Below, in pieces: positions 12,261 through 33,085 of a DNA stretch of 64,000 nucleotides. A program made the position numbers and the translations under genes. Numbering within the stretch: the first letter of the stretch is position 1; every line of letters starts with the position of its first letter. Under the pieces are notes generated by a model. The model was given only the letters and a program-made list of their open reading frames with translations. It did no database searches and was not told the DNA's origin. Origin of the DNA: Lachnospiraceae bacterium (lineage in GTDB: Bacteria > Bacillota > Clostridia > Lachnospirales > Lachnospiraceae); the NCBI GenBank assembly GCA_014804425.1, contig JAAUZV010000006.1, positions 42,421 to 106,420 of the forward strand. The letters are read 5' to 3'.

Positions 12261-13529
12261 TCATCCCGTCTGAATCATCCCCCCGACGAAAATCCCCCGA
12301 TTCGCTTCATACATGCCGGGGAGCTGCGATAACGGCAGCGGGTTCTCACCTAAGCCCGCCTCAATCGTATACCCCGGCCTGTCATACGTCATAATAAACC
12401 AATCCTTATATCCTGCGTTCCCCGACGCCGCAGGCGTCTCCTCCACCGCATAGCCACTCACAGCTCCGAAATATTGCGCGATCTCATAGGAACGCGCCGG
12501 CTCATAGTCCTGATATTTCCAAAAAATAACCTCTCCCTGCGTGTGATAGGCAAGAATCAGTAAGAACCGATGCTCCAGCGTAAAATTGTAGACTGCCGCG
12601 CTCTCCGGCGCAACAAGCGGCGCCTGCCCGACATAATCGCGGGGCGCGGGCGTCGTATAGCCCTGCGCATATTTCACACGCCGCGCCTCCTCCCAGCCTG
12701 CCGGAAATTGCAGGTTTAAGTCCACTCCCTCAATATTGGCTTTCCACCCGCTCGGAAACGGGATTGACGGATATGCCGCCGCAATCTCGCGTGCCCTCTC
12801 ATATGCTGCCGTATCGATCGGCAGTCCGTTTACCAGATCCACGCCGTCAGGATTCACCATCGGTACCACATATAGAGAATAATTGTCAAACAGCCACTTT
12901 GCATCAACGCCGCCTATCCTTTTTCCCAAGGCATACGCCTGCGCATACTCCTCAACGAAGCGCAGAACAAGCGGTGTTGTGATCCACTCATTGGCATGGA
13001 ATGCCGCGTTGTAAAACAGCTCACGCTCCCCGTTTCCGATACGCACATACCACAGCTCATTTTTCAAGACACTCTGCCCGATGCTTCCTGTCTGCAAAAA
13101 AGAATACCGCGCAGCAAGTCCCTCGATCACATAACGCGTGAGCATCGAGGAATATGCGACATCCTGCGGCACGACCTCAAACGGCAGCGGCACGATAAGC
13201 GACATGCCCGGCATCAGGTAAAGCGGCCCGATACCCGGATTGGCGAGCATGAGCGCCTGCATCGATATGTGGTAGCGCGCAGCGATCTCGTAAAAACTGT
13301 CCCCCGCCTGCACCTCATAAGTCACATATCCGCGCAGATACGGCACAAGCGTCTCCCACACACTGTCATCCACAATGCACTCCGCTTCCTCTTTTCCCGT
13401 AAACGCCGCAAGCGCCCTGCAGGTCTCTTCCCCAAACACACCATCCACAGCAGTCGAATACCCTGCCCTTTGCAGCGCAATCTGTATGTATTGCACCAAT
13501 GTCCCCTGATCTCCACGCACAATCCGCAT
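12261..13529 (-). CDS. M14 family zinc carboxypeptidase with peptidoglycan-binding and LysM domains
   Basis: N-terminal peptidoglycan-binding repeat, LysM (YEVQAGDSFYEIAARYHISMQALMLANPG), AAFHANEWITTPLVLRFVEEYA and MVNPDGVDLVNG motifs. Confidence 0.9.
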   Translation of the reverse strand: MRIVRGDQGTLVQYIQIALQRAGYSTAVDGVFGEETCRALAAFTGKEEAECIVDDSVWETLVPYLRGYVTYEVQAGDSFYEIAARYHISMQALMLANPGIGPLYLMPGMSLIVPLPFEVVPQDVAYSSMLTRYVIEGLAARYSFLQTGSIGQSVLKNELWYVRIGNGERELFYNAAFHANEWITTPLVLRFVEEYAQAYALGKRIGGVDAKWLFDNYSLYVVPMVNPDGVDLVNGLPIDTAAYERAREIAAAYPSIPFPSGWKANIEGVDLNLQFPAGWEEARRVKYAQGYTTPAPRDYVGQAPLVAPESAAVYNFTLEHRFLLILAYHTQGEVIFWKYQDYEPARSYEIAQYFGAVSGYAVEETPAASGNAGYKDWFIMTYDRPGYTIEAGLGENPLPLSQLPGMYEANRGIFVGGMIQTG

Positions 13530-13647
13530 CGTTCTTCCTCCGCCCTTCCGAAAATGAACCCTATTTTACTTCCCTATGCAATTATCTTATGCGCGTACCG
13601 GCGTTTCGGTTCCTTTTTTCCTGTGACAGCCCGTCAAGGACTTTTAG

Positions 13648-13701
13648 GCACAAAAAAAGAGTTTGCGTTCCGCAAACTCTTTCGGAGAAATTTCCTATAA
13701 G
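13648..13701 (-). repeat. Hairpin repeat family A, single-stem variant
   Basis: Minus strand CTTATAGGAAATTTCTCCGAAAGAGTTTGCGGAACGCAAACTCTTTTTTTGTGC. Confidence 0.75.
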
Positions 13702-13738
13702 ATTTCAGGTTTCATAACTATTTCGTTTTATATGCCCA

Positions 13739-14734
13739 TTACACGCCCCACTCATTTTCCTGTGTGTATACCGCTTCTGTCTCTCCGTTTTCCTCTCCGG
13801 CTTCCGCTCCCGTCTCTGTTTCCGCTTCTGCCTCTGCTCCCGCTTGCGCCCCTGCTTCCTCTTCCGCCTCCGCTTCCAGCAGCATGGCGTTCGCATAATT
13901 GATGAGTTCGTCCTCCCACAGGGCATAAGCAGCTATTTTGAGATGGACAAAGTTATCGCTGCTTAAGCTCGCTTCAAGGTTCCCCTCCCCGTCGGATATG
14001 ACAGTACACAGATCGATGTAGCCCCAGCCGTTTTCCTCCGCCATTTCCTGCAAAAGGCCGTTGTATATGTCGATAGCAGGGTTGTATAAACATCCCTTTT
14101 CCTTACCTTTCACTGTATAAGTTACACTGACGATATGGATCTCTAAGTCCGGTGACGTCTCCAAAATTTTATCGATCAGTTCTTTGTACTTGTCGCGGTT
14201 GGATTCCGGCCCATATGAGACGAGGTCGTTGGTACCAAGCAGAATAAAAACGCGCTTTTTGCCCAAGAGGGGAAGGATATCCCACACATGGTACTTTTTC
14301 CCTTGATATTCAGGATGAGGAATATTGCCTTTTACAGGTCTCATTTCATTATGGACCGAGTAGCTGATTGCTGTCAGAAACTGAATATCATGGACAAAGT
14401 TGTCCTGCCTCACGCTGTAAATCCGAAACCCCTCCATGATCGAGTCTCCGATAAAAACCGAATCGCCGTAATACTCCGACAGCTGCTCATCGGTCAATTC
14501 CGCTATGCCGGTAATAGGGTCGTCGGTCAAAACCGAATCATCATAATACCCCGCCGACTGCTCATCGGTCAGTTCCGTTATGTTGATCATTTCCGCTTCG
14601 TCAGTCGGTTCCGGGCATACATCGACTGACGGCAGCTCGGAGGCGTACACAGAGCATGTTGTGTAATCTCCCAAAACGAGCATTCCGACAATGGCAATAC
14701 ATAAAAATTTTCCTTGTTTTCTGAATTTTCTCAT
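13739..14734 (-). CDS. Secreted SGNH/GDSL-type hydrolase
   Basis: Signal peptide, SVFIGDSIMEGF (block I), FILLGTNDLVSYG, late DNFVHL; internal repeat upstream of block I. Confidence 0.8.
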   Translation of the reverse strand: MRKFRKQGKFLCIAIVGMLVLGDYTTCSVYASELPSVDVCPEPTDEAEMINITELTDEQSAGYYDDSVLTDDPITGIAELTDEQLSEYYGDSVFIGDSIMEGFRIYSVRQDNFVHDIQFLTAISYSVHNEMRPVKGNIPHPEYQGKKYHVWDILPLLGKKRVFILLGTNDLVSYGPESNRDKYKELIDKILETSPDLEIHIVSVTYTVKGKEKGCLYNPAIDIYNGLLQEMAEENGWGYIDLCTVISDGEGNLEASLSSDNFVHLKIAAYALWEDELINYANAMLLEAEAEEEAGAQAGAEAEAETETGAEAGEENGETEAVYTQENEWGV

Positions 14735-14871
14735 CTTTCTATTCCTTCTTTCCATGGATATTTTATGCATTGTAAGCTTAGAAAGCAATAGCAAAATTAA
14801 AAAAATCGGGTGAAGAGCAATTTAATCTATCGCGAAAGCGCCACAGTCTCTTTCACCCTTGACTTTTCCAG

Positions 14872-14905
14872 TATCATCTTTTATAGTAAAACCAATGTTT
14901 TGATA
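14872..14905 (+). promoter_or_regulatory. Promoter upstream of degV-like gene
   Basis: TTGACT-17-TATAGT; position approximate. Confidence 0.6.
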
Positions 14906-14947
14906 TTCAAATTAAAATTGAACAGTGTTCAAGAAAGGATTTTTCCC

Positions 14948-15808
14948 ATGTGTGTAAGAATCATAACCGACTCTGCCGCTGATCTGACCGCAGAATATGC
15001 CGCATCCCATGCCGTCACCGTCATTCCGATGACGACCATTTTCGGAGAAACAGAATATGTGGAGGGCGTCACAATCACGCACCACGAGTTTTACGAAAAG
15101 CTGATCGAGGACGACACGCTCCCCAAAACAAGCCAGCTTGCCCCGCATCAGTTTGAAGCGTTTTATGAAAAAGTTGCCTCCGCCGGGGATACCGCTGTCG
15201 TCATTACACTGTCTTCAAAGCTCTCCGGCACTTATCAGAATGCCGTGCTTGCCGCTGCGGATTATGAGGGAAAGATCTTTCCTGTTGACAGCTTAAATGC
15301 GACGGTCGGGGAACAGGTTTTGGTCAAACGCGCCGTTATGCTCGCAGAACAGGGAAAAAGCGCTTCGGAAATCGCAGATACCCTGTGCCGGGAACGCTCC
15401 CGCGTCCGTCTGATCGCACTCTTAGACACGCTGGAATACCTTAAAAAGGGCGGTCGGATCTCTCCGGCCACCGCATTTGTCGGTAACATGCTTTCCATTA
15501 AACCGGTCGTCACCGTCCGCGACGGCGAGGTTGTCGTCATCGGTAAGGCGCGCGGCTCCAAAAAGGGAAATAATATGCTCATCGAATATATCAAGGAACA
15601 CGGCGGCGCGGATTTTGACTATCCGATCGCTTTAGGCTATACCGGCTTATCCGATGATTTATTACAAAAATACATAGAGGACAGCCGGACACTCTGGGCG
15701 GACACATTCGATTCCCTCCCGATCTGTACGGTCGGAAGCACGATCGGCACCCATGTCGGCCCCGGCGCGATTGCTGTCGCTTATTTTCATCCTTCGGCGG
15801 AGGCATGA
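14948..15808 (+). CDS. DegV family fatty-acid-binding protein
   Basis: MCVRIITDSAADLTAEYAASHAVTVIPMTTIFGETEYVEG...TLSSKLSGTYQNA. Confidence 0.95.
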   Translation: MCVRIITDSAADLTAEYAASHAVTVIPMTTIFGETEYVEGVTITHHEFYEKLIEDDTLPKTSQLAPHQFEAFYEKVASAGDTAVVITLSSKLSGTYQNAVLAAADYEGKIFPVDSLNATVGEQVLVKRAVMLAEQGKSASEIADTLCRERSRVRLIALLDTLEYLKKGGRISPATAFVGNMLSIKPVVTVRDGEVVVIGKARGSKKGNNMLIEYIKEHGGADFDYPIALGYTGLSDDLLQKYIEDSRTLWADTFDSLPICTVGSTIGTHVGPGAIAVAYFHPSAEA

Positions 15809-17309: not shown

Positions 17310-18743
17310 TCACACGTTGATCTCCGCTTTCACACCGAGCAGCGCTTTATTTTCCTTTAAGATGGGCTCGACCACATTCTTTAAGAACGCATCCACCTGA
17401 ATCGAGGCGCGTCCCGTATAGCGCGACGGCTCCATTGTCGTTTGCAGCTCCTCCAGCGTTAACCCGAAAGAGGGATCGTCTGCGATCAGCTCCAAAAGAT
17501 TATTGTCAAGACCTTCCTCTTTAACCGTTTTTCCCGCCTGCATGGAGAGCTGTCTGATCTTCTCGTGCAGCTCCTGCCTGTCACCGCCCGCCTTGACCGC
17601 GTCCATCATGATATTCTCTGTCGCCATAAACGGCAGCTCGCTCATGAGCCGCTTTAAGATGACCTTTTCATGAACGACCAGACCGTCCACCACATTCAGG
17701 CACAGATCGAGCACGCCGTCGATCGCCAGAAAACCTTCGGGAATCGAAAGCCGCTTATTCGCCGAATCGTCCAGCGTCCGCTCAAACCACTGTGTCGCAG
17801 AAGTGATCGCCGGATTCATGGCATCGCACATCACATAGCGCGATAAAGAAGCAATGCGCTCGCTGCGCATCGGATTGCGCTTATATGCCATCGCCGAAGA
17901 ACCGATCTGATTCTTCTCAAATGGCTCCTCCACCTCTTTTAAGTGCTGGAGCAGTCGAATATCGTTGCTCATTTTATGCGCGCTCGCCGCAATGCCCGCC
18001 ACCACATTCATGACGCGGGTATCGACCTTACGCGAATAGGTCTGCCCCGATACCGGATAGCATTCCTCAAATCCCATTTTTTTTGCGATCATCGGGTCGA
18101 TGCGGTCGATCCGCTCGTGATCTCCGTCAAACAGCTCCAAAAAGCTCGCCTGCGTTCCGGTCGTTCCCTTCGAACCGAGCAGCTTCATCGTCGAGAGCAC
18201 ATAATTCAGATCCTCTAAATCCAAACAAAATTCCTGCATCCACAGCGTTGCGCGCTTGCCCACGGTCGTCGGCTGCGCCGGCTGAAAATGCGTAAATGCA
18301 AGCGTCGGCATCGCCTGATATTTTTTAGCAAAATCGGCAAGCTTCGCAATCACATTGACCAGCTTCTTTTTGACAAGCTTTAACGCCTCCGTCATGACGA
18401 TGATGTCCGTATTGTCCCCGACATAGCAGCTCGTCGCACCCAGATGAATGATGCCCTTTGCCTTCGGACACTGTACGCCGTAAGCATACACATGACTCAT
18501 GACATCGTGGCGCACTTCCTTTTCCCGCGCCTTTGCCACATCATAATTAATATCATCCTGATGGCTTTTCAGCTCGTCGATCTGCTCCTGCGTGATGTCC
18601 AGTCCCAGCTCTTTTTCCGTCTCGGCAAGCGCGATCCACAGCTTTCTCCATGTACGGAACTTCATGTCCGGAGAAAAAATATATTGCATTTCCCTGCTTG
18701 CATACCGCTCCGAAAGCGGACTTACATATCTGTCTGTGCTCAT
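17310..18743 (-). CDS. purB: Adenylosuccinate lyase
   Basis: PLSERYASREMQYIFSPDMKF...GSSAMAYKRNPMRSERI. Confidence 0.98.
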   Translation of the reverse strand: MSTDRYVSPLSERYASREMQYIFSPDMKFRTWRKLWIALAETEKELGLDITQEQIDELKSHQDDINYDVAKAREKEVRHDVMSHVYAYGVQCPKAKGIIHLGATSCYVGDNTDIIVMTEALKLVKKKLVNVIAKLADFAKKYQAMPTLAFTHFQPAQPTTVGKRATLWMQEFCLDLEDLNYVLSTMKLLGSKGTTGTQASFLELFDGDHERIDRIDPMIAKKMGFEECYPVSGQTYSRKVDTRVMNVVAGIAASAHKMSNDIRLLQHLKEVEEPFEKNQIGSSAMAYKRNPMRSERIASLSRYVMCDAMNPAITSATQWFERTLDDSANKRLSIPEGFLAIDGVLDLCLNVVDGLVVHEKVILKRLMSELPFMATENIMMDAVKAGGDRQELHEKIRQLSMQAGKTVKEEGLDNNLLELIADDPSFGLTLEELQTTMEPSRYTGRASIQVDAFLKNVVEPILKENKALLGVKAEINV

Positions 18744-18811
18744 CCGGTTCTCCTTTTTCTTTATCATACTGGCCTATTCGCCGCAAAAAAAATACGCGCC
18801 GATCTTTTATA

Positions 18812-18900
18812 TCCTATAGAAAATTTCTCTGCCCCGGAAGAATTCGCCGCAGGCGAATTCTTCGAAAGATTGGCGCACCCGCGCCAATCTTTTTTATGCA
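18812..18900 (+). repeat. Hairpin repeat family A, two-stem copy, overlapping the purF stop codon
   Basis: CTATAGAAAATTTCTCTGCCCCGGAAGAATTCGCCGCAGGCGAATTCTTCGAAAGATTGGCGCACCCGCGCCAATCTTTTTTATGC. Confidence 0.85.
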
Positions 18901-20342
18901 TCAAACTCGCCCCGAATATCCTCATCGGGCGGCGTCATCGGATAATGCCCCGTAAAGCATCCCTTACAGATGCCGAGTCCGTCCACCATCTCGGTCAAAC
19001 GTTCTTCCTTCAGGTAGGCGAGCGTATCCGCGCCGATGACCTTACGGATGTCCTCAACCGAGCGGTTGTACGCGATCAACTGATCTCTCGCCGGAATGTC
19101 CGTTCCGAAATAGCACGGCCACAAAAACGGCGGCGCGCTGACACGCATATGTACTTCCTTTGCCCCCGCCTCGCGCAGCATGTGGACGATCCTATCCGAG
19201 GTCGTACCGCGAACGATGGAATCGTCGATCATGATCACACGTTTTCCTTCCACCGCCTCGCGCAGCGCTGTCAGCTTCACCTGCACGCTGTTCTCCCTGT
19301 TTTTCTGCTTCGGTTTGATAAAGGTTCTCCCCACATAGCTGTTCTTGACAAACGCCTGCCCGTAGGGGATGCCCGACTGCATGGAATAACCAAGCGCGGC
19401 ACAATTGCCGGATTCCGGCACGCCGACGACCACATCCGCATCCACCGGGGAATCGATCGCAAGAAATTTTCCCGCCATGATACGGGAATGGTACACGCTC
19501 ATTCCGTCAATATAACTGTCGGGTCTGGCAAAATAAATATACTCGAATACACATCTCGCCTGCTTTTCCTTCGCAATGCAGCGTGACGTATCCGACTGAA
19601 TTCCATATTCAGGACTGATGGTAACGATCTCTCCTGGAAGCACGTCGCGCACAAACTCCGCGCCGACCGTATCGAGTGCACAGGTTTCGGATGCTAAAAT
19701 ATATACATTGTCGCGCCTGCCGATGCAGAGCGGACGGAACCCGAACGGGTCACGCGCGCCGATCAGCTTGCGCGGAGACATCACGATCAGGGAATACGCC
19801 CCCTTGATCTTGTCCATCGCGCGTCCCACGCCCTCCTCGACCGTCTTACTCTTTAAGCGCTCACGGGCAATATGATACGCAATGACCTCGGAGTCAATCG
19901 TCGTCTGGAAGATCGCTCCCGTATATTCCAGTTCACGGCGCAGCTCCGGCGCATTGATAAGATTCCCGTTATGCGCCAGTCCCAAAGTACCCTTAACGTA
20001 ATTTAACACAAGCGGCTGCGCATTCTCTCTCGTGCTGCTGCCCGCCGTGGAATAGCGCACATGCCCCACGCCGATATCACCTTTCAGCTTCTCTAAAATC
20101 TCCGGCGTGAATGCCTCGTTGAGCAGCCCCATGTCCTTTGCGGACAGAACCTTCCCTTTCGGTCCCTGCGTATCGCTGACGGCAATGCCGCAGCTCTCCT
20201 GCCCTCTGTGCTGGAGTGCAAAGAGACCGTAATAAATCGTGGAGGCAACATCACCGCCGTCAAAATCATAAACACCGAATACGCCGCATTCCTCATGCAG
20301 CCCATCCTCGGGCTCCGTACAAATGTTTAACTTATCCGTCAT
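18894..20342 (-). CDS. purF: Amidophosphoribosyltransferase
   Basis: EECGVFGVYDFDGGDVASTIYYGLFALQHRGQESCGIAV...VIMIDDSIVRGTTSDRIVHMLREAGA. Confidence 0.98.
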   Translation of the reverse strand: MTDKLNICTEPEDGLHEECGVFGVYDFDGGDVASTIYYGLFALQHRGQESCGIAVSDTQGPKGKVLSAKDMGLLNEAFTPEILEKLKGDIGVGHVRYSTAGSSTRENAQPLVLNYVKGTLGLAHNGNLINAPELRRELEYTGAIFQTTIDSEVIAYHIARERLKSKTVEEGVGRAMDKIKGAYSLIVMSPRKLIGARDPFGFRPLCIGRRDNVYILASETCALDTVGAEFVRDVLPGEIVTISPEYGIQSDTSRCIAKEKQARCVFEYIYFARPDSYIDGMSVYHSRIMAGKFLAIDSPVDADVVVGVPESGNCAALGYSMQSGIPYGQAFVKNSYVGRTFIKPKQKNRENSVQVKLTALREAVEGKRVIMIDDSIVRGTTSDRIVHMLREAGAKEVHMRVSAPPFLWPCYFGTDIPARDQLIAYNRSVEDIRKVIGADTLAYLKEERLTEMVDGLGICKGCFTGHYPMTPPDEDIRGEFDA

Positions 20343-20437
20343 GTCCAACCTTTCAAGCATACCGCCGCACACAGCAAAAATCCCATCCTGCTGCCGCACA
20401 CGGCAAAACAATTTCAATATACCGCCACAGATGCCGC

Positions 20438-21142
20438 TTACAGACCGAGCCGCTTAAACACCTCGTTATATGCTTCCTCCACATTGCCGAGATCTCTGCG
20501 GAAACGATCTTTATCCAGCTTCTCGTTCGTATGTACATCCCACAGACGGCAGGTGTCCGGACTTGTCTCATCCGCAAGGATGATCTGTCCGTGATAGCGT
20601 CCGAACTCGATCTTAAAGTCGATCAGCTTGATATCCGCGCCGAGGAAGTACGCTTTTAACACATCATTGACCTTGAACGCATATTTTTTGATCGTATCAA
20701 GCTCCTCCCATGTCGCTAACCCTAATGCAACCGCAAAATAGCTGTTGATCAACGGATCGCCGAGCTCGTCATTTTTATAGGAAAATTCAATGGTCGGCTC
20801 CGTAAACGGCGTTCCCTCCGGCACACCGAGCCGTTTGGAAAAGCTTCCTGCCGCCACATTACGGATAATGACCTCAAGCGGCACGATCTCTACTTTTTTT
20901 ACGGCGGTCTCACGCTCGCTCAGCTCCTCAACAAAATGGGTGGGTACGCCCTCCTTCTCCAACAGCTTGAACACATGATTCGTCATTTTGTTGTTGATGA
21001 CGCCTTTGCCGACGATCGTTCCCTTTTTCTCGCCGTTAAATGCCGTTGCATCGTCCTTATAGTCAACGATGAGCACGTCGGGATCGTCTGTCTTAAATAC
21101 TTTTTTTGCCTTTCCCTCATAAAGCAGATCCAATTTGTTCAT
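20438..21142 (-). CDS. purC: Phosphoribosylaminoimidazolesuccinocarboxamide synthase
   Basis: [46 protein letters not shown]. Confidence 0.98.
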
Positions 21143-21247: not shown

Positions 21248-22417
21248 TTATTGTGGATTGTCCCGCCAAAAAGGACTCATCCACTGCTTTGCGTACTGAA
21301 ACGCCGCCTCCGACGCCGCCCCTTCCGCCTCGGAAAACTTTACCATTCCCGCCTTATAAAAATAGAGGCATCGGCTTTTGCCCTTTCCGTCCAAATACCA
21401 ACCGCCGACGTTCTGAAGATCCCTCCAATAATAAACGGCAGCAGGCTGCTGCACATCCACCAGAAAATGCCGCGTGACCACATAGCTCTCATTGGCGGAT
21501 ACCGGGTCCTGCGTAAAGTACTCGCGGCAGAATAATTCCTTTAACTGCCCTGCATCTCCCCATTCCTTGAATCTGCGCAGCCCCTTTCGGATCGGAGCCG
21601 TCGCGATCGTAATGACGACCGCCGCGCACAGATACAGAAATGCCAGCATCATCACCACATCCCCCCGCTCATCCGGCAGCGGCGGATAGATCACAAACGC
21701 AATCGTAATGAACATCAATAACCCTAATTCAAAGAAAAGCACATTTCGAAGAATCGCACTCTGATATATGTAAAAATAACGATGCAGGAACACGGCCGGA
21801 TGTTTGCCCTCCCGCCAGCGAAAACATGTGATCCTTGCCGAATAGAGCCGTACAAACAAACTGACCGCCAAAAGGACGATCTTGCAGCACAAAAAGTACA
21901 CCGCATACAAATATACCCACAACACCCATTCCGACGTCACAAAAAATAAACTCCTCCCGCTGATCGGATAATACAAAAAGCTGAAGATGACCACCGCGGC
22001 GCAGATCACATCAGGAATACAGGAGAGCACCCAGCGGATCACTTCTTTTTTCCCGCGTTTTCTCTGAAGCAGGTAACAGACTGCCCAGAGAAACATCCAT
22101 ACAAAAGCCGCCAGCACAAGCTTTGCCTGCAGTTTCTCGCTTCCCAGTGCCAAAGAAAATGAGAGAATCTGCTCCGTCCCCGGTCTCGGCACCTGAACCA
22201 TCAGCGCGGCAAGCGCCGAACCCATCATGGTTACCACACAGGGAATGCCTAAGATCGCCAAAGTCTCCGCTTTGGATTTTTGTTTGACCAATTGATAAAA
22301 GTCCACCATATACAGGGCTGCGCCCGCATATAAGATCAGCATGACGACCCCAAAATCCTGCCCTATCGCAGCGTCCGGATCCACAAACAACTGAAAGAAT
22401 GATACAAGCTCCTTCAC
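21248..22417 (-). CDS. Polytopic membrane protein of unknown function (last gene of five-gene operon)
   Basis: GTG start at 22417 after GGAGG (MKELVSFFQLFVDPDAAIGQDFGVVMLILY...), several TM segments; the ORF track over-extends 5'. Confidence 0.7.
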   Translation of the reverse strand: MKELVSFFQLFVDPDAAIGQDFGVVMLILYAGAALYMVDFYQLVKQKSKAETLAILGIPCVVTMMGSALAALMVQVPRPGTEQILSFSLALGSEKLQAKLVLAAFVWMFLWAVCYLLQRKRGKKEVIRWVLSCIPDVICAAVVIFSFLYYPISGRSLFFVTSEWVLWVYLYAVYFLCCKIVLLAVSLFVRLYSARITCFRWREGKHPAVFLHRYFYIYQSAILRNVLFFELGLLMFITIAFVIYPPLPDERGDVVMMLAFLYLCAAVVITIATAPIRKGLRRFKEWGDAGQLKELFCREYFTQDPVSANESYVVTRHFLVDVQQPAAVYYWRDLQNVGGWYLDGKGKSRCLYFYKAGMVKFSEAEGAASEAAFQYAKQWMSPFWRDNPQ

Positions 22418-22439
22418 CCTAATCCTCCATGATCTACAG

Positions 22440-23636
22440 TCATTCTCTTTCGTACTCCTCCACGATCGTAAGGATCGCACGCGCGGATTCCGGATATTCC
22501 GCCGCGATCTCCCTGATCTCCTGCTTTGCGCGCTCCACAAGCTCCCGGTTATGCTCCATCTGCTTTCGAAGCTTCTGCCGCTGCTCATTATAGCCGTGGC
22601 GAAGCTCCACGCGCTCGCGGGAATCCAACAGCGCCTCCGGGCGGCGCATCCACACGAGCGGATCAAACAATTGATAATGCTGCAAAAGCCGAAGCAGCTC
22701 TCTGCGGAAATGCGAGAGATCATCCACCGTTCTCTCATACTGTTTCCGGTACTCCTGCTCCTCATAAAACAGCGCAAGCTGCTCTTCCAGCATTCCGCTG
22801 CTCTCGGTATGATATTTCATATACAGATAATCCAACAGATTCGTGTTATTCACATATCGGATCTTGACGCGGTTCTGTAACAGGATCAGCTTGTTAATGC
22901 CCGCAGTCACGCGCGCAAGCTCTTTGGACGCCTCATGATACCGGATATAAACATACACCAGAACCCCCGCCATCACGAGTCCGGCCATCAGATACCCGAC
23001 GGACGAATCCATGTGAAACCCAAACTGAAACAATAACAGCATGGCAAAGCAGCAGCTCATCGCACAAATACAAATGAGTGACATTCCCTTCGTGTCATGC
23101 ATCGCATGCCGCAGTTCCTGCCTGCGGATCTCGTACGCCTGCCGTTCGGCATGCAGTCTGCGCAGATCGTGTTTGACAAGCTCCCGATACTCCTCATTTT
23201 CCTTGAGCTTCGCGATCGCTTCCTCCGCCTCCGGTTCAATCTGCTCGATCTGACGGTACTCCTCCTCGGGCATCCGTCCTTCCCCCTCGGGAATTTCCTG
23301 TCTTGCCTGCTCTAAGCTTAAAATCTTATTGGCACAAGAGACAAGCCGGTTATACTCTCCGTCCGGCAGCGCCTCGACCTCCTCCACATCCTTCAAATAG
23401 GACGTAACCCTGTTATATTCCCTGTTTAATTCAGAAAGGTTGGCGGCTAAGTCCGCCGACTGCTCCATCAGGGCGCGCACATATTTCTCACGCTCCTCCG
23501 GCAGCGTCATATCGACCTCCTGCCTGCGCAGCGAAAGCTGCTCCCAGTCGCCGTAGTCGAACGTCTCCTCCTCCGCCGTATCCTTTCTTTTTTTCAAAAA
23601 CCATCTTTTAAGAAAATCAAACATCCGTCTATTCAC
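22440..23636 (-). CDS. Coiled-coil protein with central TM hairpin, unknown function
   Basis: Long charged helices flanking SLICICAMSCCFAMLLLFQFGFHM...YLMAGLVMAGVLVYVYIRY; overlaps upstream gene by 8 nt. Confidence 0.75.
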   Translation of the reverse strand: MNRRMFDFLKRWFLKKRKDTAEEETFDYGDWEQLSLRRQEVDMTLPEEREKYVRALMEQSADLAANLSELNREYNRVTSYLKDVEEVEALPDGEYNRLVSCANKILSLEQARQEIPEGEGRMPEEEYRQIEQIEPEAEEAIAKLKENEEYRELVKHDLRRLHAERQAYEIRRQELRHAMHDTKGMSLICICAMSCCFAMLLLFQFGFHMDSSVGYLMAGLVMAGVLVYVYIRYHEASKELARVTAGINKLILLQNRVKIRYVNNTNLLDYLYMKYHTESSGMLEEQLALFYEEQEYRKQYERTVDDLSHFRRELLRLLQHYQLFDPLVWMRRPEALLDSRERVELRHGYNEQRQKLRKQMEHNRELVERAKQEIREIAAEYPESARAILTIVEEYERE

Positions 23637-24456
23637 ACCGCTTTCTGTAGGTTTCCTTCAATTGCGTGACCGCGCTTTCCACCTGTGCATAATAATCGGG
23701 GCTCCGCTCCTCCCAAGCCTGCTCCAGATCGGCAAGCTCCCCGCATGCCTCGCTCATGCGCCATTGATCCCGGTATTCCGCGATCTGTGCGTCCACCTGC
23801 TCAGCAAGCTGCTTTAATTCCGGCAGCGCGGCAAGCTTTTTTTCTTGTTCCTTCCTTGTTCCGTGCATTCTGACCGCGCACACATAATTGCGGAGACTGT
23901 CCCTGTGATAAGTCAGCCGATACGCTTTGTCAAAATATTCCTCCGCGAGCGCGAAGCCGAACATCTGCGCCTCAATACAGCCCATTGCGTTGTAGATCGC
24001 GGCTGTTAAGGCAATGTCCTTTCCCTCCACGTCGGCAAGCAGCCCGCGGTACTGCGCTAAGGCGCGCTCATATCTGCCCTCGCAGGCAAGCTGATCAATG
24101 CGTATTTTCTTTTTTTCATTCGGACCAAGCCCCGCGTTCTCACGCATCAGCCGCTTTAAGTCCTCCAGCCGCTCTCTCCCGCAATAATGGCATTCTTCCA
24201 TAATGCGCACGACAAAGTTCTCCAACGGCTCTTCATTCCGCACATATACGCGGAGGCTTCTTGCGAGCTCCTCCAGACCAAGCTCCTCCTCAATCCATGA
24301 GAACAGCTCCTCGTTCATCATATCCTCGTCAAGCAGCACCGCATGATGCTCTAAATAATAACAAAGTTCCTCGACTGCATACAGTCTGACGCCCGCCTGC
24401 CGCATCACATATGGTTTTCTGGCATACCTGCCGACGCATATCCTCACCCTGCCCAT
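23629..24456 (-). CDS. Helical/TPR-like protein of unknown function
   Basis: Predominantly helical sequence with repeated YDKAYRLTYH / YERALAQYRGLL-like segments; within the operon. Confidence 0.7.
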   Translation of the reverse strand: MGRVRICVGRYARKPYVMRQAGVRLYAVEELCYYLEHHAVLLDEDMMNEELFSWIEEELGLEELARSLRVYVRNEEPLENFVVRIMEECHYCGRERLEDLKRLMRENAGLGPNEKKKIRIDQLACEGRYERALAQYRGLLADVEGKDIALTAAIYNAMGCIEAQMFGFALAEEYFDKAYRLTYHRDSLRNYVCAVRMHGTRKEQEKKLAALPELKQLAEQVDAQIAEYRDQWRMSEACGELADLEQAWEERSPDYYAQVESAVTQLKETYRKRCE

Positions 24457-24532
24457 CGCAGCCTCCCTGTGTTCTATGCCCTTTTACGGCACATTTCTTC
24501 CGCCGTTCCTAATCTGCCGCCTGTTTGTGCGC

Positions 24533-25828
24533 TTACAGCACGCCCACTTCCTGCTCCCAGCTTAATCCGCTGCTCTCAAAAAAGCTGCCGAAGCCCAAAT
24601 CCTCCACACGGACTGCAAAGCGTTCTTCCGAGAGAAAACGCGCTTTCAGATGCAGTCTCGTCATGTGCCCGTCCTGCTCGGGCAGCCCGTTTAATTTCAT
24701 GACAAGCGTCCTGCGCACGCCGCCGTTCAACGGTGTCAGCACAAAGAACAGCTCGTTACCGCTCTCTAAGAGCAGATCCCATTCCCGTCTGACATCAAAC
24801 CAGTTGACACCCGCGTCAATGAGCGGATAATACTGTTCCTTTCCGTCCACAACAGCGTTCATGCCGATATTCACCTTGAGCTTGTCCCTGCTGAGAAATA
24901 AGTATTTCGTCGATGCCGCGCTCGGATGAACGCGCTCATAAGCCGCATAGCACGCGCCCTTACTGTATAGATTATTTCCCTGAAACACCCTGCGCTTGCT
25001 GCAAAGAAGCCTGAGCGATTCCTTGCACCAGTCGCCCTGATAACCGTCGCCGATGAGATAGGCACATGAGACGATCCGTTCCTTCGTCTCCTCTTCAATG
25101 ATCGCCGCAAACGCCTCGTCGCGCTGTTTTGCCTGAAGCGCCGCGGCAGCTTCGTCCCCCTCAAACGGTACAAGCCGCATCTGCGGAAAGCTCTTTTCCG
25201 TAGTATACGCAACGATCGGGCTCGTCTTTCGGTTAAATTCCAAACGATACGTTTTCAAACATTCCGACACATACTCAAAGATCATGACCTCATGCGTGCG
25301 AAGCTCCTCCGGCTGATGCATGCAGTACTGATAAAAGCTCTCGGCATGGCTCTGGAAAAATAAATGTTCCCTGTCCATCTGCAGATAGCCGCCCACGCCG
25401 GATAGCACCTCCAGCATACGGCTGTCCGCCTGCTCGACCGTGATCATCAGATAATCCGGGCGCTCCGCCCCTGAACCGAGCAGCATCACGGACAGACTGT
25501 GCTTGATAAAAAGAGCAAGCAGGGATACCGCGTCAAACTGCTCTTCCTCCAGCGTGACCTGTTCCCCCGCGCACGCGCGTTCCAAGAGATGCTCCACCAA
25601 GATCCCGTCGCCCTCTTCGCTGTGCCTCCACGCGTCCCTGCCAAAAAACCACTGATTGACGCCATAGCGCTTGCACAGCACCATCGGGATTGCAAACTGC
25701 TCTTTTCCCGCGACAAGGCTCACCGTCTCCGGCTCCGGCTTCTCGCTGCTGCAAAAGCTGATCTGCGCACTCACATGATTCAATTCCAGTCCGATGAACA
25801 GTCGGTTCTTTTTTTCCCGAAACAGCAT
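24533..25828 (-). CDS. DUF5716-like protein; degenerate Hsp70/actin-like fold suspected
   Basis: N-terminal RLFIGLELNHVSAQISF, AIPMVLCKRYGVNQWFFGRDAWR, VSCAYLIGDGYQGDW...NNLYSKGACYAAYE mirror Hsp70 landmarks; DUF number from memory. Confidence 0.7.
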   Translation of the reverse strand: MLFREKKNRLFIGLELNHVSAQISFCSSEKPEPETVSLVAGKEQFAIPMVLCKRYGVNQWFFGRDAWRHSEEGDGILVEHLLERACAGEQVTLEEEQFDAVSLLALFIKHSLSVMLLGSGAERPDYLMITVEQADSRMLEVLSGVGGYLQMDREHLFFQSHAESFYQYCMHQPEELRTHEVMIFEYVSECLKTYRLEFNRKTSPIVAYTTEKSFPQMRLVPFEGDEAAAALQAKQRDEAFAAIIEEETKERIVSCAYLIGDGYQGDWCKESLRLLCSKRRVFQGNNLYSKGACYAAYERVHPSAASTKYLFLSRDKLKVNIGMNAVVDGKEQYYPLIDAGVNWFDVRREWDLLLESGNELFFVLTPLNGGVRRTLVMKLNGLPEQDGHMTRLHLKARFLSEERFAVRVEDLGFGSFFESSGLSWEQEVGVL

Positions 25829-25837
25829 GTCCTCTCC

Positions 25838-28800
25838 TTAATCCTGCGTCTGCGCTGAAAATAATTTCGCAGTCAGAAAGTTTTTTTCCTCATATGCGGC
25901 ATACATCTTATGAAAGCCGGAATAATCCTGCAGAGTGCCTGCAATGACTAAATCATTGATATCCGCATAACGAGTCCCGCCGCTGCCCGCACTCATATCG
26001 CTCTTGCTGATGGTCGCGCTCTCCGTGAGCTGCTCGCCCTCGGCGGTGTCCTCCGTGATGTAATATTGCAGCGTCTCCCCAAAAAAGAGCACGAGCGATT
26101 TGATATGGATTCCTTCGTACATCTCCGTCATCGGTTCCGTCACATATGCGCCGTCCCCATCCTCCGCCTGCATCACATAATGCAGCAGCACCCGCCTGCC
26201 CGGTACCGTGCGGTACTCGATCATCGTCTCGTCCGCACAGCGTTCTACACAGCGTATGGTCTGCGCATATTCCGCAAAAAACGGGAAGCAGATGCCTTTC
26301 GCCATAAAATATTCCAAAAACCGTCCGGCAAGCTGTAACACTTCCTCGCCTGCGGTAGAAACAGAGTCGGCATAAAACTTGAGGTAAGCAAGGCGGCATA
26401 CGTCATGAAGCTCCTCGCCGCGATAAAATAATCTTGTAAAGTAGGAAAACAATTTTTCATCCACAACATTGCCGCGGACAAAAAAATCATAGGCACAGAC
26501 CGTCAGATACGCAAGCTCGACCTGCTTTCCCGCGCCGTTTTTTACATAGGAATAGAACAATTCGTTCTTTTCCCCGATATAATATCCGCTGAACAGGATC
26601 TGCAATAAGATCCGTTCGCACAGGTTGTTCACATCCAGTTCAAAATCCTTTGCCGCCTTCCAGATGTCGCGCAGATGCTTGGTTGTCCCCTCATAATACG
26701 CCGCAAGGTAGCGGAGAATATTTTCGTCATATTTCCCGCCCTCAAATGTGCGGAACGCGAGGGAGATCAGTTTTTCGTCCGGCTTAAACTCCGTCCTGAC
26801 GATCAGCCTGCTCAACAGCCGTACCGCGGTCGCCACATCCACCTGCTCCATTCCGAAGATGCAGAGCCATTGATATGCCCTGTCATACATCGTGCGCAGG
26901 ATCATCAGGCGTAAGAATTCGCTGCGCTCCCTTGTTCCCATATCCTCCGGATCAACGGCCAGTATCACGGCATCACATTCCTCTATCCGGTCATTGTCAT
27001 AGAGATACTGCGCCAGCCGCAGCCGGATCTCCTTCTTAAACTCGTCCTTTACCTGCCCGGATTCCCACAGCCGTTTGTAGCAATCCACATTTTTGGCGGT
27101 AACTACGACACCGCTGCGTCCGCCCTCGCACAAATAGAGATCCATCCCCAGATGATTTCTTACGTTTCCGCCTATCTCCTTGATAAAACGTCCGGGTATC
27201 ATGAGTTTCTCAATGCGGTACAATTCGCCCGATACCCTGCGGTTCCCGTTTTCATCCTGGAGCAGGATCTGATACGACGAGTCATAGATCGGAACGACCG
27301 TCTTCCTGTCCGTGACAGGATAGACATGCTCTCCCTTTACGCGGTCATAGATCAGCACGATCTGCCTGCATTTATCATCCCTGACCGTAATGAGATGGGA
27401 AAAGAGCAATGTGACAAACTGCGGCGCGTTCTCCTCGTTCAGCATAGCGGGCGTGACAAGCTCGCTGTAAAGATACGCAAGCTGCCTGTTGATATGTCCC
27501 ATTGCGATCTGTTCCAGCAAAAACCGTTCCACAAACTGGCGATAAGTGAGCGCAATCTCGGGATACTTCTCCCGATTGCGGTAAACGTTGGCATAGAGCA
27601 TGCTCTTTCCCTGATAATCCAGCTCGCTGTGGTACGCAAAATACATCATGACCATTTTGGGGAGCTCGCCCTCAAAATCCGCAGGCAGAGAAAGCATGTA
27701 GGATTCATACAGTCTCGTCACACGCAGCTCACGTTCAACGCCGAGCGCATACCACGGAAAATAGCGTTCCCCGAATTTCCCGCCCTTGATCAGAAAGCTG
27801 AGCAGAATCTGCAGCGTTTCGTCATTCTTTGTGGTCTCATAGCTTTTCTGCAGGATAAAAAACATTCTGTCGGAATACTGCTTGATCTTAGGCGCAAGAT
27901 TTTGAAGCTGCAAAATGACGTCTTTCCCCAGCACATCTTTTTTTGCCGCATAATTTAATACCTGAAGCTCAAACTCGGAAAGCTTGCTTAACATCGTCGG
28001 GTTTGCGTTCAGAAGCGCAAGCGCCTCCATGTAAAGAACGGGACTCTTGCAGCTTTCATGAAACTGGTTTTCCAAAAACAGCCACTTTTTATAGGGGCTT
28101 TTGGAGAACTCCTCCCGCAGATAAAGAAGCAGCCACGCGATCCGCCAGTTCTCGGGATACTGCGCATAAATCTGCTCCACCTCGCTTGTCACCTCATCGA
28201 CATAGACTTCGCTGCGCCGTATCAAAGAAGTCAGATATAAGTAATAGCACCAATGCTCGGGCGCGCGCTTGCCATAGGTGAGATCCTGCTCCACGCGCTC
28301 TAAGATCCACTTCGCTTCATTGATGCGCTCCTCCGTGATCAGAAGCTGCGCCTTGAACAGACGCGCCGGAATGTTCCGTTCCTCCAATTCATTCATGCGC
28401 TCCACGATCTTTTTGGATTCGCGGAGCCACACGGCTGACGAGATCTTTTTCGTGCGGAACGCGGCATAATAGTCCATCAGTGAGACTGTCAGGCGGCGCA
28501 TTTCCTTTTTTCTCGAAAAAGCAACGCCGTACCTCTTAGCTGCCGTGACCTGAATCTCAATACAGATGTCCACGGATGCGTTAAACAGCCGCACATAACC
28601 GAAATTATTGCCCGCATGCAATCCCGCGCTGTCCACCACAAATCCGGTATTGCATATATTTCCCAAAAAATCATCGTCCGTCAGTACTTTTTTCTCAACG
28701 GAGAGAAAATCGCCGTCCGTCTCGATGGCGAGCGCCGTATAGCCCCAGCCGTTGCGTGTGATCGTAATGCGCCCCTGCGCGGTGCTCTCCGGCTCCTCCA

Positions 28801-29404
28801 TACGGATATGCGTCTCCATCGGAATGTACTCGATCGGCTGTTTTTTATTGATCTCGATCAAAAACTCATCCACATTCTGCTGATTGCCCTTCATGCCCGA
28901 AAGACCGAGATAAGTATTTAAGTAACGGCAGTCCGTTCCGTGAAACAACGACAGAAAATCGGCACGATAAAACAACGCGACCGCTTCATCCCAATTTGTT
29001 TTGGCCAGATTGGCAAAATGAAAGAGATTCTTGACCGGTCCGAGCAGCGAGTTGAGTACGCTGTGAGAGACCGTCACCACGAACGGAATCGTATATTCAC
29101 CCGCGCTGGAAACAATGGAGAATTCTCCCTTCTGGATGTCACCCTCCTCCATGCCGATGCCCGAAAAACGATAGATGATCTCTGCCTGTGTCCCCTCAAA
29201 CTCCGCTTTCAGACACTGCATGCGCAAAGAAGAGGAACGCACTGTTCCCGCGACCTGATTTCCTCCCCTTGACTTCAGCTGAAAGCTTCCCTTCACGGTC
29301 TCTCCCTTACGAATGGAAAGCTCGATCTTATAATCGGAAAGCACAAGGGATCCGGCATCATATTCAATTTTTCCGTCAATCAAGCGCTGCGTTACCGATT
29401 CCAC
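25838..29404 (-). CDS. DUF5717-like very large protein (1188 aa), beta-sandwich N-terminus plus alpha-solenoid
   Basis: GTG start; first gene of operon; beta-rich start (IELSIRKGETVKGSFQLKSRGGNQVAGTV) then long helical repeats; DUF number from memory. Confidence 0.75.
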   Translation of the reverse strand: MESVTQRLIDGKIEYDAGSLVLSDYKIELSIRKGETVKGSFQLKSRGGNQVAGTVRSSSLRMQCLKAEFEGTQAEIIYRFSGIGMEEGDIQKGEFSIVSSAGEYTIPFVVTVSHSVLNSLLGPVKNLFHFANLAKTNWDEAVALFYRADFLSLFHGTDCRYLNTYLGLSGMKGNQQNVDEFLIEINKKQPIEYIPMETHIRMEEPESTAQGRITITRNGWGYTALAIETDGDFLSVEKKVLTDDDFLGNICNTGFVVDSAGLHAGNNFGYVRLFNASVDICIEIQVTAAKRYGVAFSRKKEMRRLTVSLMDYYAAFRTKKISSAVWLRESKKIVERMNELEERNIPARLFKAQLLITEERINEAKWILERVEQDLTYGKRAPEHWCYYLYLTSLIRRSEVYVDEVTSEVEQIYAQYPENWRIAWLLLYLREEFSKSPYKKWLFLENQFHESCKSPVLYMEALALLNANPTMLSKLSEFELQVLNYAAKKDVLGKDVILQLQNLAPKIKQYSDRMFFILQKSYETTKNDETLQILLSFLIKGGKFGERYFPWYALGVERELRVTRLYESYMLSLPADFEGELPKMVMMYFAYHSELDYQGKSMLYANVYRNREKYPEIALTYRQFVERFLLEQIAMGHINRQLAYLYSELVTPAMLNEENAPQFVTLLFSHLITVRDDKCRQIVLIYDRVKGEHVYPVTDRKTVVPIYDSSYQILLQDENGNRRVSGELYRIEKLMIPGRFIKEIGGNVRNHLGMDLYLCEGGRSGVVVTAKNVDCYKRLWESGQVKDEFKKEIRLRLAQYLYDNDRIEECDAVILAVDPEDMGTRERSEFLRLMILRTMYDRAYQWLCIFGMEQVDVATAVRLLSRLIVRTEFKPDEKLISLAFRTFEGGKYDENILRYLAAYYEGTTKHLRDIWKAAKDFELDVNNLCERILLQILFSGYYIGEKNELFYSYVKNGAGKQVELAYLTVCAYDFFVRGNVVDEKLFSYFTRLFYRGEELHDVCRLAYLKFYADSVSTAGEEVLQLAGRFLEYFMAKGICFPFFAEYAQTIRCVERCADETMIEYRTVPGRRVLLHYVMQAEDGDGAYVTEPMTEMYEGIHIKSLVLFFGETLQYYITEDTAEGEQLTESATISKSDMSAGSGGTRYADINDLVIAGTLQDYSGFHKMYAAYEEKNFLTAKLFSAQTQD

Positions 29405-29443
29405 AACAAAAACCGTCCTTATACGTCATAAAAATCCACTTTT

Positions 29444-29472
29444 ATTATAGGATAAAACGACTTACTTCGCAA
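29444..29472 (-). promoter_or_regulatory. Promoter of the DUF5717/DUF5716-like operon
   Basis: TTGCGA-17-TATAAT on the minus strand, about 40 nt upstream of GTG start. Confidence 0.75.
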
Positions 29473-31006: not shown

Positions 31007-33085
31007 TTATTTTGCCAACAGCATCATGATCTTATTGCTTCTTGCCACAAACTTTGTCATCGCCTCCGGCTCAAGCGGCGCTTGCTGGATGAGTGCCAGA
31101 TCGTAAAGCTGCTCGCAGATCGTACTTACATTCTCGCCGTCCTTGTGCTCCAAAATATACTGAACCAGCTTATTATTTGCATTCAGGGTCAGCGTTAACC
31201 CTTCCTTGCCCATGCCCGGCATTCCCATTCCCGGCATCGCATACATTTTCATCATATCCTGCATGCGGCGCGTCTCCTCGGAGAGCGTTACCATGGAGGA
31301 AATGTCCTTATTTTTCAGCCGCTCAAGCTTGACTGTCACATTGTCTTTCTTGATCGCTTTCTTAAAGAGCTTATTTAACTCCTCAGACTGTGCCGCAAGC
31401 TCCTCCGCCGCCTTCTTGGATGTCTTTGCCTTCATGTCATCCGTGATGTCCGCGTCGATCCGCATGAAACGGATGCCCTCGTTTTTGGACTCGAGCTGCG
31501 TGATGAACGGCTGGTCGATATTATCCTTTAAGATCACGGCATCCATCTTCGCCTTGCGGAACATATTGATATACTGGCTCTGCTGCACTTCATCCGTGAC
31601 GTAGTAGATGACCTTTTCTTTCTTCTCATCTGCTTCCGCATCTTCTTCGTCCGCATCGCCGTCCGTATCCTCTGTCACAACCTCTGTCTCGACCGCTTCT
31701 CCGGTCTCCACATCTGTTGCCGCGCCGGCATCCTGATCCTCTTCCGCCGTATCGATCGGCTTCACTTCCAGGCACTCCGGCAGCGTACGGTACTCGCCGT
31801 CAATATTCTTAAACAGGATATAATCCGTCATTTTTTCGCAGAACTTATCGTCTTTTAAGCAGCCGAATTTGATGAACGGACTGATGTCATCCCAGTATTT
31901 CTGATATTCCTCTTTCTCCGTTTTGCAAAGTCCCGCCAGCTTGTCGGCAACCTTTTTCGTGATGTAATCGGAAATCTTCTTCACAAAGCCGTCATTCTGC
32001 AGCGCGCTTCTCGATACATTGAGGGGCAGATCCGGACAGTCGATCACACCCTTTAAGAGCATCAAAAATTCAGGAATGACTTCCTTAATATTATCCGCAA
32101 TGAACACCTGACTGTTATACAGCTTGATCGTTCCCTCGATGGACTCGTACTCCATGTTGATCTTCGGGAAATAAAGAATTCCCTTTAAGTTAAATGGATA
32201 GTCCATATTTAAGTGAATCCAGAACAGCGGCTCCTTGTAATCCTGAAATACCTTGCGGTAAAATTCAAGGTACTCCTCCTTTGTGCATTCAGACGGATTT
32301 TTCGCCCAAAGCGGCGTTGTATCATTTAACAGTTCCGGACGCTTTGCGATCTTTAATTTTTCGGGATCGCCCTCTTTCTCCGGTGCGATCGTTTCGATCA
32401 CGGTATCGGTATCAAGCTTCTCCTCCGCCTTGATCGTCTGCGTCGCCGTCGAATTCGCCACGGACAGATAGATCTCATACGGCATAAAAGAACAATATTT
32501 CTTTATGACCTCACGCGCCTTATACTCATTACAGAATTCCAGACAATCTTCATTTAAGTAGAGCGTGATCTCGGTACCGACCTCGTCCCGGCTGCCCTCG
32601 GTCATATCAAATTCTGTACCGCCGTCGCATTCCCAATGTACCGGAGCTGCACCTTCCTTAAAGGAAAGCGTGTCGATATGCACCGCATCGGCAACCATGA
32701 ATGCCGAGTAAAAACCGAGTCCGAAATGACCGATGATCTGGTCGTCGTTCGTCTTGTCCTTATATTTTTCAATGAAATCCGTTGCACCGGAAAATGCGAT
32801 CTGGTTAATATATTCCTCCACCTCGTCGGCGGTCATGCCAAGTCCGGTATCAATGAATTTCAGCGTTTTTTCCTCAGGATTACAGATGACCTGAATTTGG
32901 TTCTTGAAATCATCGGGGTAAGTATATTCTCCCATCATCTCCAGCTTTTTCAGCTTCGTGATCGCGTCACAGCCATTCGAGATCAGCTCCCGGTAAAAAA
33001 TATCATGGTCGGAATAGAGCCATTTCTTGATGATTGGAAAAATATTGTCGCTGTTAATGGATAAGTTGCCGTGTTTCTGTTCCAT
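31007..33085 (-). CDS. htpG: Molecular chaperone HtpG (Hsp90)
   Basis: LYSDHDIFYRELISNGCDAITKL...GLGFYSAFMVAD...NVSRSALQND; acidic insertion before KEKVIYYVTDEVQQSQYI. Confidence 0.97.
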   Translation of the reverse strand: MEQKHGNLSINSDNIFPIIKKWLYSDHDIFYRELISNGCDAITKLKKLEMMGEYTYPDDFKNQIQVICNPEEKTLKFIDTGLGMTADEVEEYINQIAFSGATDFIEKYKDKTNDDQIIGHFGLGFYSAFMVADAVHIDTLSFKEGAAPVHWECDGGTEFDMTEGSRDEVGTEITLYLNEDCLEFCNEYKAREVIKKYCSFMPYEIYLSVANSTATQTIKAEEKLDTDTVIETIAPEKEGDPEKLKIAKRPELLNDTTPLWAKNPSECTKEEYLEFYRKVFQDYKEPLFWIHLNMDYPFNLKGILYFPKINMEYESIEGTIKLYNSQVFIADNIKEVIPEFLMLLKGVIDCPDLPLNVSRSALQNDGFVKKISDYITKKVADKLAGLCKTEKEEYQKYWDDISPFIKFGCLKDDKFCEKMTDYILFKNIDGEYRTLPECLEVKPIDTAEEDQDAGAATDVETGEAVETEVVTEDTDGDADEEDAEADEKKEKVIYYVTDEVQQSQYINMFRKAKMDAVILKDNIDQPFITQLESKNEGIRFMRIDADITDDMKAKTSKKAAEELAAQSEELNKLFKKAIKKDNVTVKLERLKNKDISSMVTLSEETRRMQDMMKMYAMPGMGMPGMGKEGLTLTLNANNKLVQYILEHKDGENVSTICEQLYDLALIQQAPLEPEAMTKFVARSNKIMMLLAK

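Follow-up and report, generated by a model that had tools for sequence, protein, structure and literature searches.

A pseudo-Hsp70 in a conserved operon of Lachnospiraceae and its relation to a multi-Hsp70 operon of sister families

What is the role of an operon whose first two products belong to protein families without a described function? This question is raised by five genes, here called A to E, that lie on the minus strand (positions 21248-29404) of a 64,000-nucleotide stretch of DNA from a Lachnospiraceae bacterium (contig JAAUZV010000006.1), hereafter the window. An open reading frame (ORF) check of the window confirmed that the five ORFs are collinear and placed end to end. A and B are members of DUF5717 (PF18983/4) and DUF5716 (PF18980), respectively, to which Pfam gives no function. 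In this work, we offer an identity for these two families, which are nearly universal in Lachnospiraceae, a dominant family of the human gut. We show that B is a member of the Hsp70 superfamily, with the fold of the nucleotide-binding domain (NBD) followed by the β part of the substrate-binding domain (SBD-β) and with no lid.

The DUF5716 protein is a member of the Hsp70 superfamily

The initial annotation, made from the letters alone, had likened the first two products to DUF5717 and DUF5716, and the Pfam scan places both above the curated cut-offs: A matches DUF5717_N and DUF5717 (E=9e-298 and 2e-100; 990.4 and 336.6 bits against a cut-off of 25) and B matches DUF5716_C (E=1e-103; 346.6 against 34.7 bits). 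It had also proposed a resemblance of B to Hsp70, on which profiles, predicted structure and intermediate sequences now agree. Among 77 Lachnospiraceae B proteins, that of the window included, no single one gave a listed match to Pfam HSP70 (PF00012). A profile of 36 DUF5716 proteins matches DnaK with E=1e-17 over profile positions 9-407, almost its whole length, and a profile dominated by Lachnospiraceae, with one member from outside the family, still reaches DnaK at 9e-8. Moreover, hhalign of the DUF5716 profile against the Hsp70s encoded next to it in sister families returned 100% and 6.7e-43. The full-length DUF5716 proteins of these families are intermediate sequences, one of them matching both DUF5716_C (2e-33) and HSP70 (2e-14).

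Structure prediction, on which the initial annotation had staked its proposal, returned an Hsp70/actin fold for B. The best PDB matches that Foldseek found for the AlphaFold model (pLDDT 89, pTM 0.85) are all Hsp70s, aligned over the NBD and SBD-β, with DnaK at the top (E=2.8e-19). The TM-scores are moderate (0.46-0.59), as expected because the NBD is truncated and the domains are movable.

The order of NBD fold and SBD-β is the same in B as in DnaK, the canonical bacterial Hsp70 (PF00012), but the phosphate-1 and phosphate-2 motifs, the catalytic Lys, the block equivalent to subdomain IIB and the helical lid are missing from B. These losses were followed in 101 Lachnospiraceae B sequences aligned to sister-family Hsp70s, in which the scored positions are invariant. 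The phosphate-1 TTN, the catalytic Lys (K70), the connect-1 Glu (E171) and the phosphate-2 GGGT and Asp are absent from the B of the window and from nearly all of the 101; the connect-1 Glu is replaced by His in 87 of them and, in most, the adenosine motif GGSS has become GDG(F/Y). A block of about 78 residues, corresponding to subdomain IIB (residues 219-296 of the sister Hsp70 reference), is also gone. What B keeps is the fold, SBD-β and the connect-2 Gly-Ala; of the ATP motifs, only single structural Gly or Asp positions remain. Thus, GIDLGTTNS, DLGGGT, GGSS, the catalytic Lys and a complete NBD with IIB, by which a functional Hsp70 is recognized, are not found in B. Since the ATP motifs and the IIB block are gone, ATP cycling by B is very unlikely, as far as can be read from sequence. 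The landmark-by-landmark alignment first made by eye, with its lost phosphate-2 loop, proved correct, and the suggestion of a non-hydrolysing protein drawn from it is strengthened by the additional loss of the phosphate-1 Thr, the catalytic Lys, the connect-1 Glu and the IIB-equivalent block.

A second DUF5716-like gene in the same genome (G000:C15, E=5e-4) was rejected as a chance match, the product being a LacI-sensor/GGDEF protein.

An eight-gene operon in sister families and its reduction

In an order-wide sample, DUF5716 was present in all 22 genomes of the family of the window. It was likewise found in nearly all closer relatives sampled, where a draft genome (G033) was the sole exception within the family. 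A named-genome scan covered 459 relatives, from which 80 loci were kept for gene-order comparison; these are titled Lachnospiraceae or come from sequence-close unclassified isolates and metagenome-assembled genomes (MAGs), and Kineothrix alysoides and a Butyrivibrio sp. are among them. These loci, from 80 other genomes, share the order A-B-C-D except where a contig ends or, in a few cases, a gene is split, and pur genes usually come next. In 39 of the 60 Lachnospiraceae loci with enough flank, htpG precedes the operon in the same orientation. Gene E is confined to the genus of the window, plus one copy on a separate contig of another genus, and therefore the conserved unit consists of four genes. 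The co-occurrence of all five genes, on which the initial annotation had relied, accordingly holds for A to D, whose order is kept in other genomes, and fails for E, which we rejected as a conserved fifth member and regard, from its distribution, as a genus-level accessory. Against same-genus orthologues, the ratio of nonsynonymous to synonymous substitution rates (dN/dS) is 0.04-0.13 for A to D and 0.15-0.27 for E. The values for A to D show that these ORFs are not due to chance and indicate that the four genes evolve under purifying selection.

In sister families of the same order, a longer operon reads A, a 559-aa Hsp70, a GrpE-domain protein (560-630 aa, with GrpE at the C-terminus), a full-length pseudo-Hsp70, a 546-aa Hsp70, an Hsp70 joined to a VWA domain (Hsp70-VWA, ~690 aa), C and D. 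All eight genes are present and co-directional in the single-contig genome G432 (locus L179). The same set was found in another single-contig genome, G361 (L178), but there A is made up of two ORFs and D is not adjacent. When profiles were made from the Lachnospiraceae versions of A, B, C and D alone, they picked the matching sister genes with E=5e-24, 2e-29, 3e-21 and 5e-31, respectively, and that of B also matched the 546-aa Hsp70 (1e-17). In a tree of these proteins, all pseudo-Hsp70s form one clade (support 100) and the 546-aa Hsp70 branches next to them, with DnaK, HscC, the 559-aa Hsp70 and the Hsp70-VWA group placed beyond it; the tree has no fixed root, and it includes some long branches. 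This topology points to an origin of the pseudo-Hsp70 by duplication of the 546-aa Hsp70 gene. The B of the window is closest to the version found in a genome of family f4 (G039).

Comparison of gene content shows that the family of the window has lost the catalytic Hsp70s and the exchange factor of this operon and has kept A-B-C-D in the original order. About 13 other families of the order have the GrpE-domain protein, which was absent from all 22 genomes of the window's family. Hsp70-VWA is absent from the nine genomes of that family checked, including the single-contig G502, which gave only DnaK/HscC-level matches, compared with E=0 to 1e-211 in positive genomes. These absences come from draft genomes, except for G502 and the single-contig sister genomes, and some of the sister genomes are MAGs with split ORFs. 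A further reduction was found in family f16, in which G051 has A and the pseudo-Hsp70 but neither the GrpE-domain nor the Hsp70-VWA gene, whereas G361 has everything. Reduction thus took place on at least two occasions, and A and B survived on each of them.

It is conceivable, at somewhat less than an even chance, that an Hsp70 machine of eight genes, specific to this order and comprising Hsp70-VWA, a GrpE-domain exchange factor, the pseudo-Hsp70 and a membrane anchor, was turned at least two times into an ATP-free apparatus in which only the pseudo-Hsp70 and the scaffold remain. The essential activity would in that case lie in the core formed by the pseudo-Hsp70 and DUF5717 and not in ATP-driven folding. 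The genes also provide a natural series, from active Hsp70 through full-length pseudo-Hsp70 to pseudo-Hsp70 devoid of the IIB block, in which one may ask what is left for an Hsp70 to do without ATP and what made a catalytic machine shrink to a scaffold. In the open-licence literature, we found no paper describing DUF5716, DUF5717 or this multi-Hsp70 operon; none of the papers found records the link of these two families to Hsp70 or their descent from an eight-gene operon, and what further searches turned up were analogies only. The dedicated chaperone system of eight genes appears not to have been described before, and the same holds for its repeated reduction.

Some features of the longer operon deserve separate mention. 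Hsp70-VWA (L043:6787-8862, L179:4046-6223) has an intact-looking MIDAS-type motif, DTTGSM, and shares 69-76% identity with the reference copy across the families of the order; it is unusually conserved and apparently undescribed. Outside the order, none was found at E<1e-120 in 388 genomes of the class and 249 of the phylum, a search that scored only the first three to four candidates in each genome and whose strict cut-off could have missed distant forms. The GrpE domain of L043:12127-14019 ends a largely helical-looking protein of about 630 aa, that is, an exchange-factor fusion inside an Hsp70 operon. DUF5717 is encoded by two ORFs in several sister families (L178:15614-16816 and 12934-15624), one for the N-terminal β-sandwich part and the other for the solenoid part, the halves being fused in Lachnospiraceae and in G432. 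At L042, in the f4 genome G039, to which the reduced type is most closely related, A, Hsp70-VWA and C are each split into adjacent ORFs, by assembly errors or decay. Finally, a Lachnospiraceae-type DUF5716 (G476:C40:2962-3861, E=4e-94) was found in one genome of family f8, whose other sampled members are devoid of DUF5716; the genome is 86% complete and 5% contaminated, suggesting transfer or contamination.

Partner proteins and possible roles of the operon

The giant solenoid proposed for A in the initial annotation is supported by AlphaFold and Foldseek. The model (pLDDT 86.6) has two N-terminal Ig/ASH-like β-sandwiches, a long TPR/HAT-like α solenoid with a β insertion and a C-terminal β domain. 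Foldseek likened the sandwiches to Ig/ASH-like domains and the solenoid to Ctr9, Ski3 and Naa15, with TM-scores so low that they are analogies of fold class only; a search by sequence found no solved homologue of A. For C, Pfam gave only weak TPR matches, the repeats being degenerate in Lachnospiraceae and clear in the sister-family orthologues. Neither D nor E has a significant Pfam family. By hydropathy, D carries a hairpin of two transmembrane segments (~185-203 and 213-231) with long charged, coiled-coil-like helical stretches on either side, and two such segments were found in 67 of 78 D orthologues; E shows 7-8 hydropathy peaks.

We tentatively favour, at close to an even chance, a membrane-tethered, ATP-independent complex that would bind clients or serve as an adaptor, descended from a dedicated Hsp70 machine. 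B would probably do without an ATPase cycle and, through the SBD-β that it retains, bind clients constitutively or act as an adaptor subunit. The solenoid of A and the TPR protein C would hold B, and the coiled coils of D may fasten the complex to the membrane on its cytoplasmic side, from which clients might be handed to the general DnaK/HtpG system. The htpG neighbourhood fits a role in proteostasis. Several points weigh against this reading. Linkage to htpG may be plain synteny and was not seen beside the eight-gene operons examined; gene order alone is no proof that A, B, C and D form a complex; peptide binding by SBD-β could have been lost; and neither the four-gene nor the eight-gene operon encodes a J-domain protein. 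In addition, at least one operon of the eight-gene type, that of the complete genome at L178, has no adjacent D, so that D may not be indispensable.

The main alternative, which we consider rather less probable, is that B is a co-chaperone of the DnaK of the cell, modulating the DnaK cycle in the manner of Ssz1 or Hsp110, while A and C serve as platforms for docking. The Ssz1 protein, part of the ribosome-associated complex of fungi, is a non-canonical Hsp70 that works in a complex and does not hydrolyse ATP (PMC7083937), and the structural matches of B include both Ssz1 and Sse1, an Hsp110 protein. Moreover, a DnaK-level match was found in every genome checked for Hsp70-VWA, and htpG often adjoins the operon. 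However, Ssz1 has kept its ability to bind ATP and is located on the ribosome, with the J protein Zuo1 as its partner, whereas B is devoid of the IIB-equivalent block and has no J-domain partner in its operon. The B of sister families also accompanies Hsp70s of its own, so that its evolution need not have been tied to DnaK. Less likely still is the structural reading of the initial annotation, an envelope or cytoskeleton-like assembly in which B would be an actin-fold scaffold, forming oligomers with A and using D as its anchor. An ASKHA fold, a solenoid scaffold and a coiled-coil membrane partner would suit it, and A has Foldseek matches to large structural assemblies. Nevertheless, the closest kin of B listed by sequence and fold matches are Hsp70s bearing SBD-β and not MreB, ParM or FtsA, which makes such a role less likely. 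In actins the IIB-equivalent block is part of the filament interface, and B is devoid of it. A GrpE domain and three Hsp70s mark the ancestor clearly as chaperone-like; as what is left of a chaperone operon with several Hsp70s, the four genes are likelier to serve in proteostasis or as adaptors than in a cytoskeleton.

A system of stress response, conflict or regulation, whose modules would assemble a complex on sensing an invader or damage, is improbable. The GTPase-centric GAP1-N2 systems with an HSP70/GrpE theme (Kaur et al. 2020; PMC7159879) have a partly similar list of components: HSP70, GrpE, a second, truncated HSP70, a fusion of β-sandwich and TPR, and VWA. Their truncated HSP70 has no SBD, whereas the truncation of B is in the NBD and leaves SBD-β in place. 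No effector was found, nor any GTPase or GAP1 among the operon proteins scanned or the neighbouring ORFs judged by eye, and the operon is nearly universal, single-copy and syntenic in the family instead of patchy. PADLOC gave no credible match; a defence system was rejected, the similarity of D to LmuB (6e-5) being one of coiled coils and that of the sister Hsp70s to PDC-M61B a generic Hsp70 similarity. That the operon is a decaying relic without remaining function, as the loss of the catalytic parts might suggest, is hardly credible: it is contradicted by the low dN/dS of A to D, the conserved gene order, the presence in 22 of 22 genomes and the fully open frames.

The locus in the window

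The features of the operon are listed in table 1. The single promoter, the sizes of the five ORFs and the overlap of C and D (-8 nt) agree with the initial annotation; the other gaps, first given as 10, 77 and 23 nt, are +9 (A/B), +76 (B/C) and +22 nt (D/E).

Table 1. Genes and promoter of the operon, with positions in the window
Feature	Positions	Strand	Description
Gene A	25838-29404	-	1188 aa, GTG start, DUF5717
Gene B	24533-25828	-	431 aa, DUF5716, pseudo-Hsp70
Gene C	23629-24456	-	275 aa; conserved N-terminal domain of ~90 residues and degenerate TPRs
Gene D	22440-23636	-	398 aa, GTG start, hairpin of two transmembrane segments with coiled-coil-like flanks
Gene E	21248-22417	-	389 aa, GTG start, polytopic membrane protein
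Promoter	29444-29472	-	Sigma-70-type, TTGCGA-17-TATAAT, ahead of gene A

The promoter is identical or nearly so in three genomes of the same genus (L092-L094), in which the DNA farther upstream has diverged. The operon is flanked upstream (31007-33085) by htpG (Hsp90), with pfkB, and downstream (17310-21142) by purC-purF-purB. Between the operon and purC sits the lineage-specific gene E, whose relative in another genus is 44% identical.

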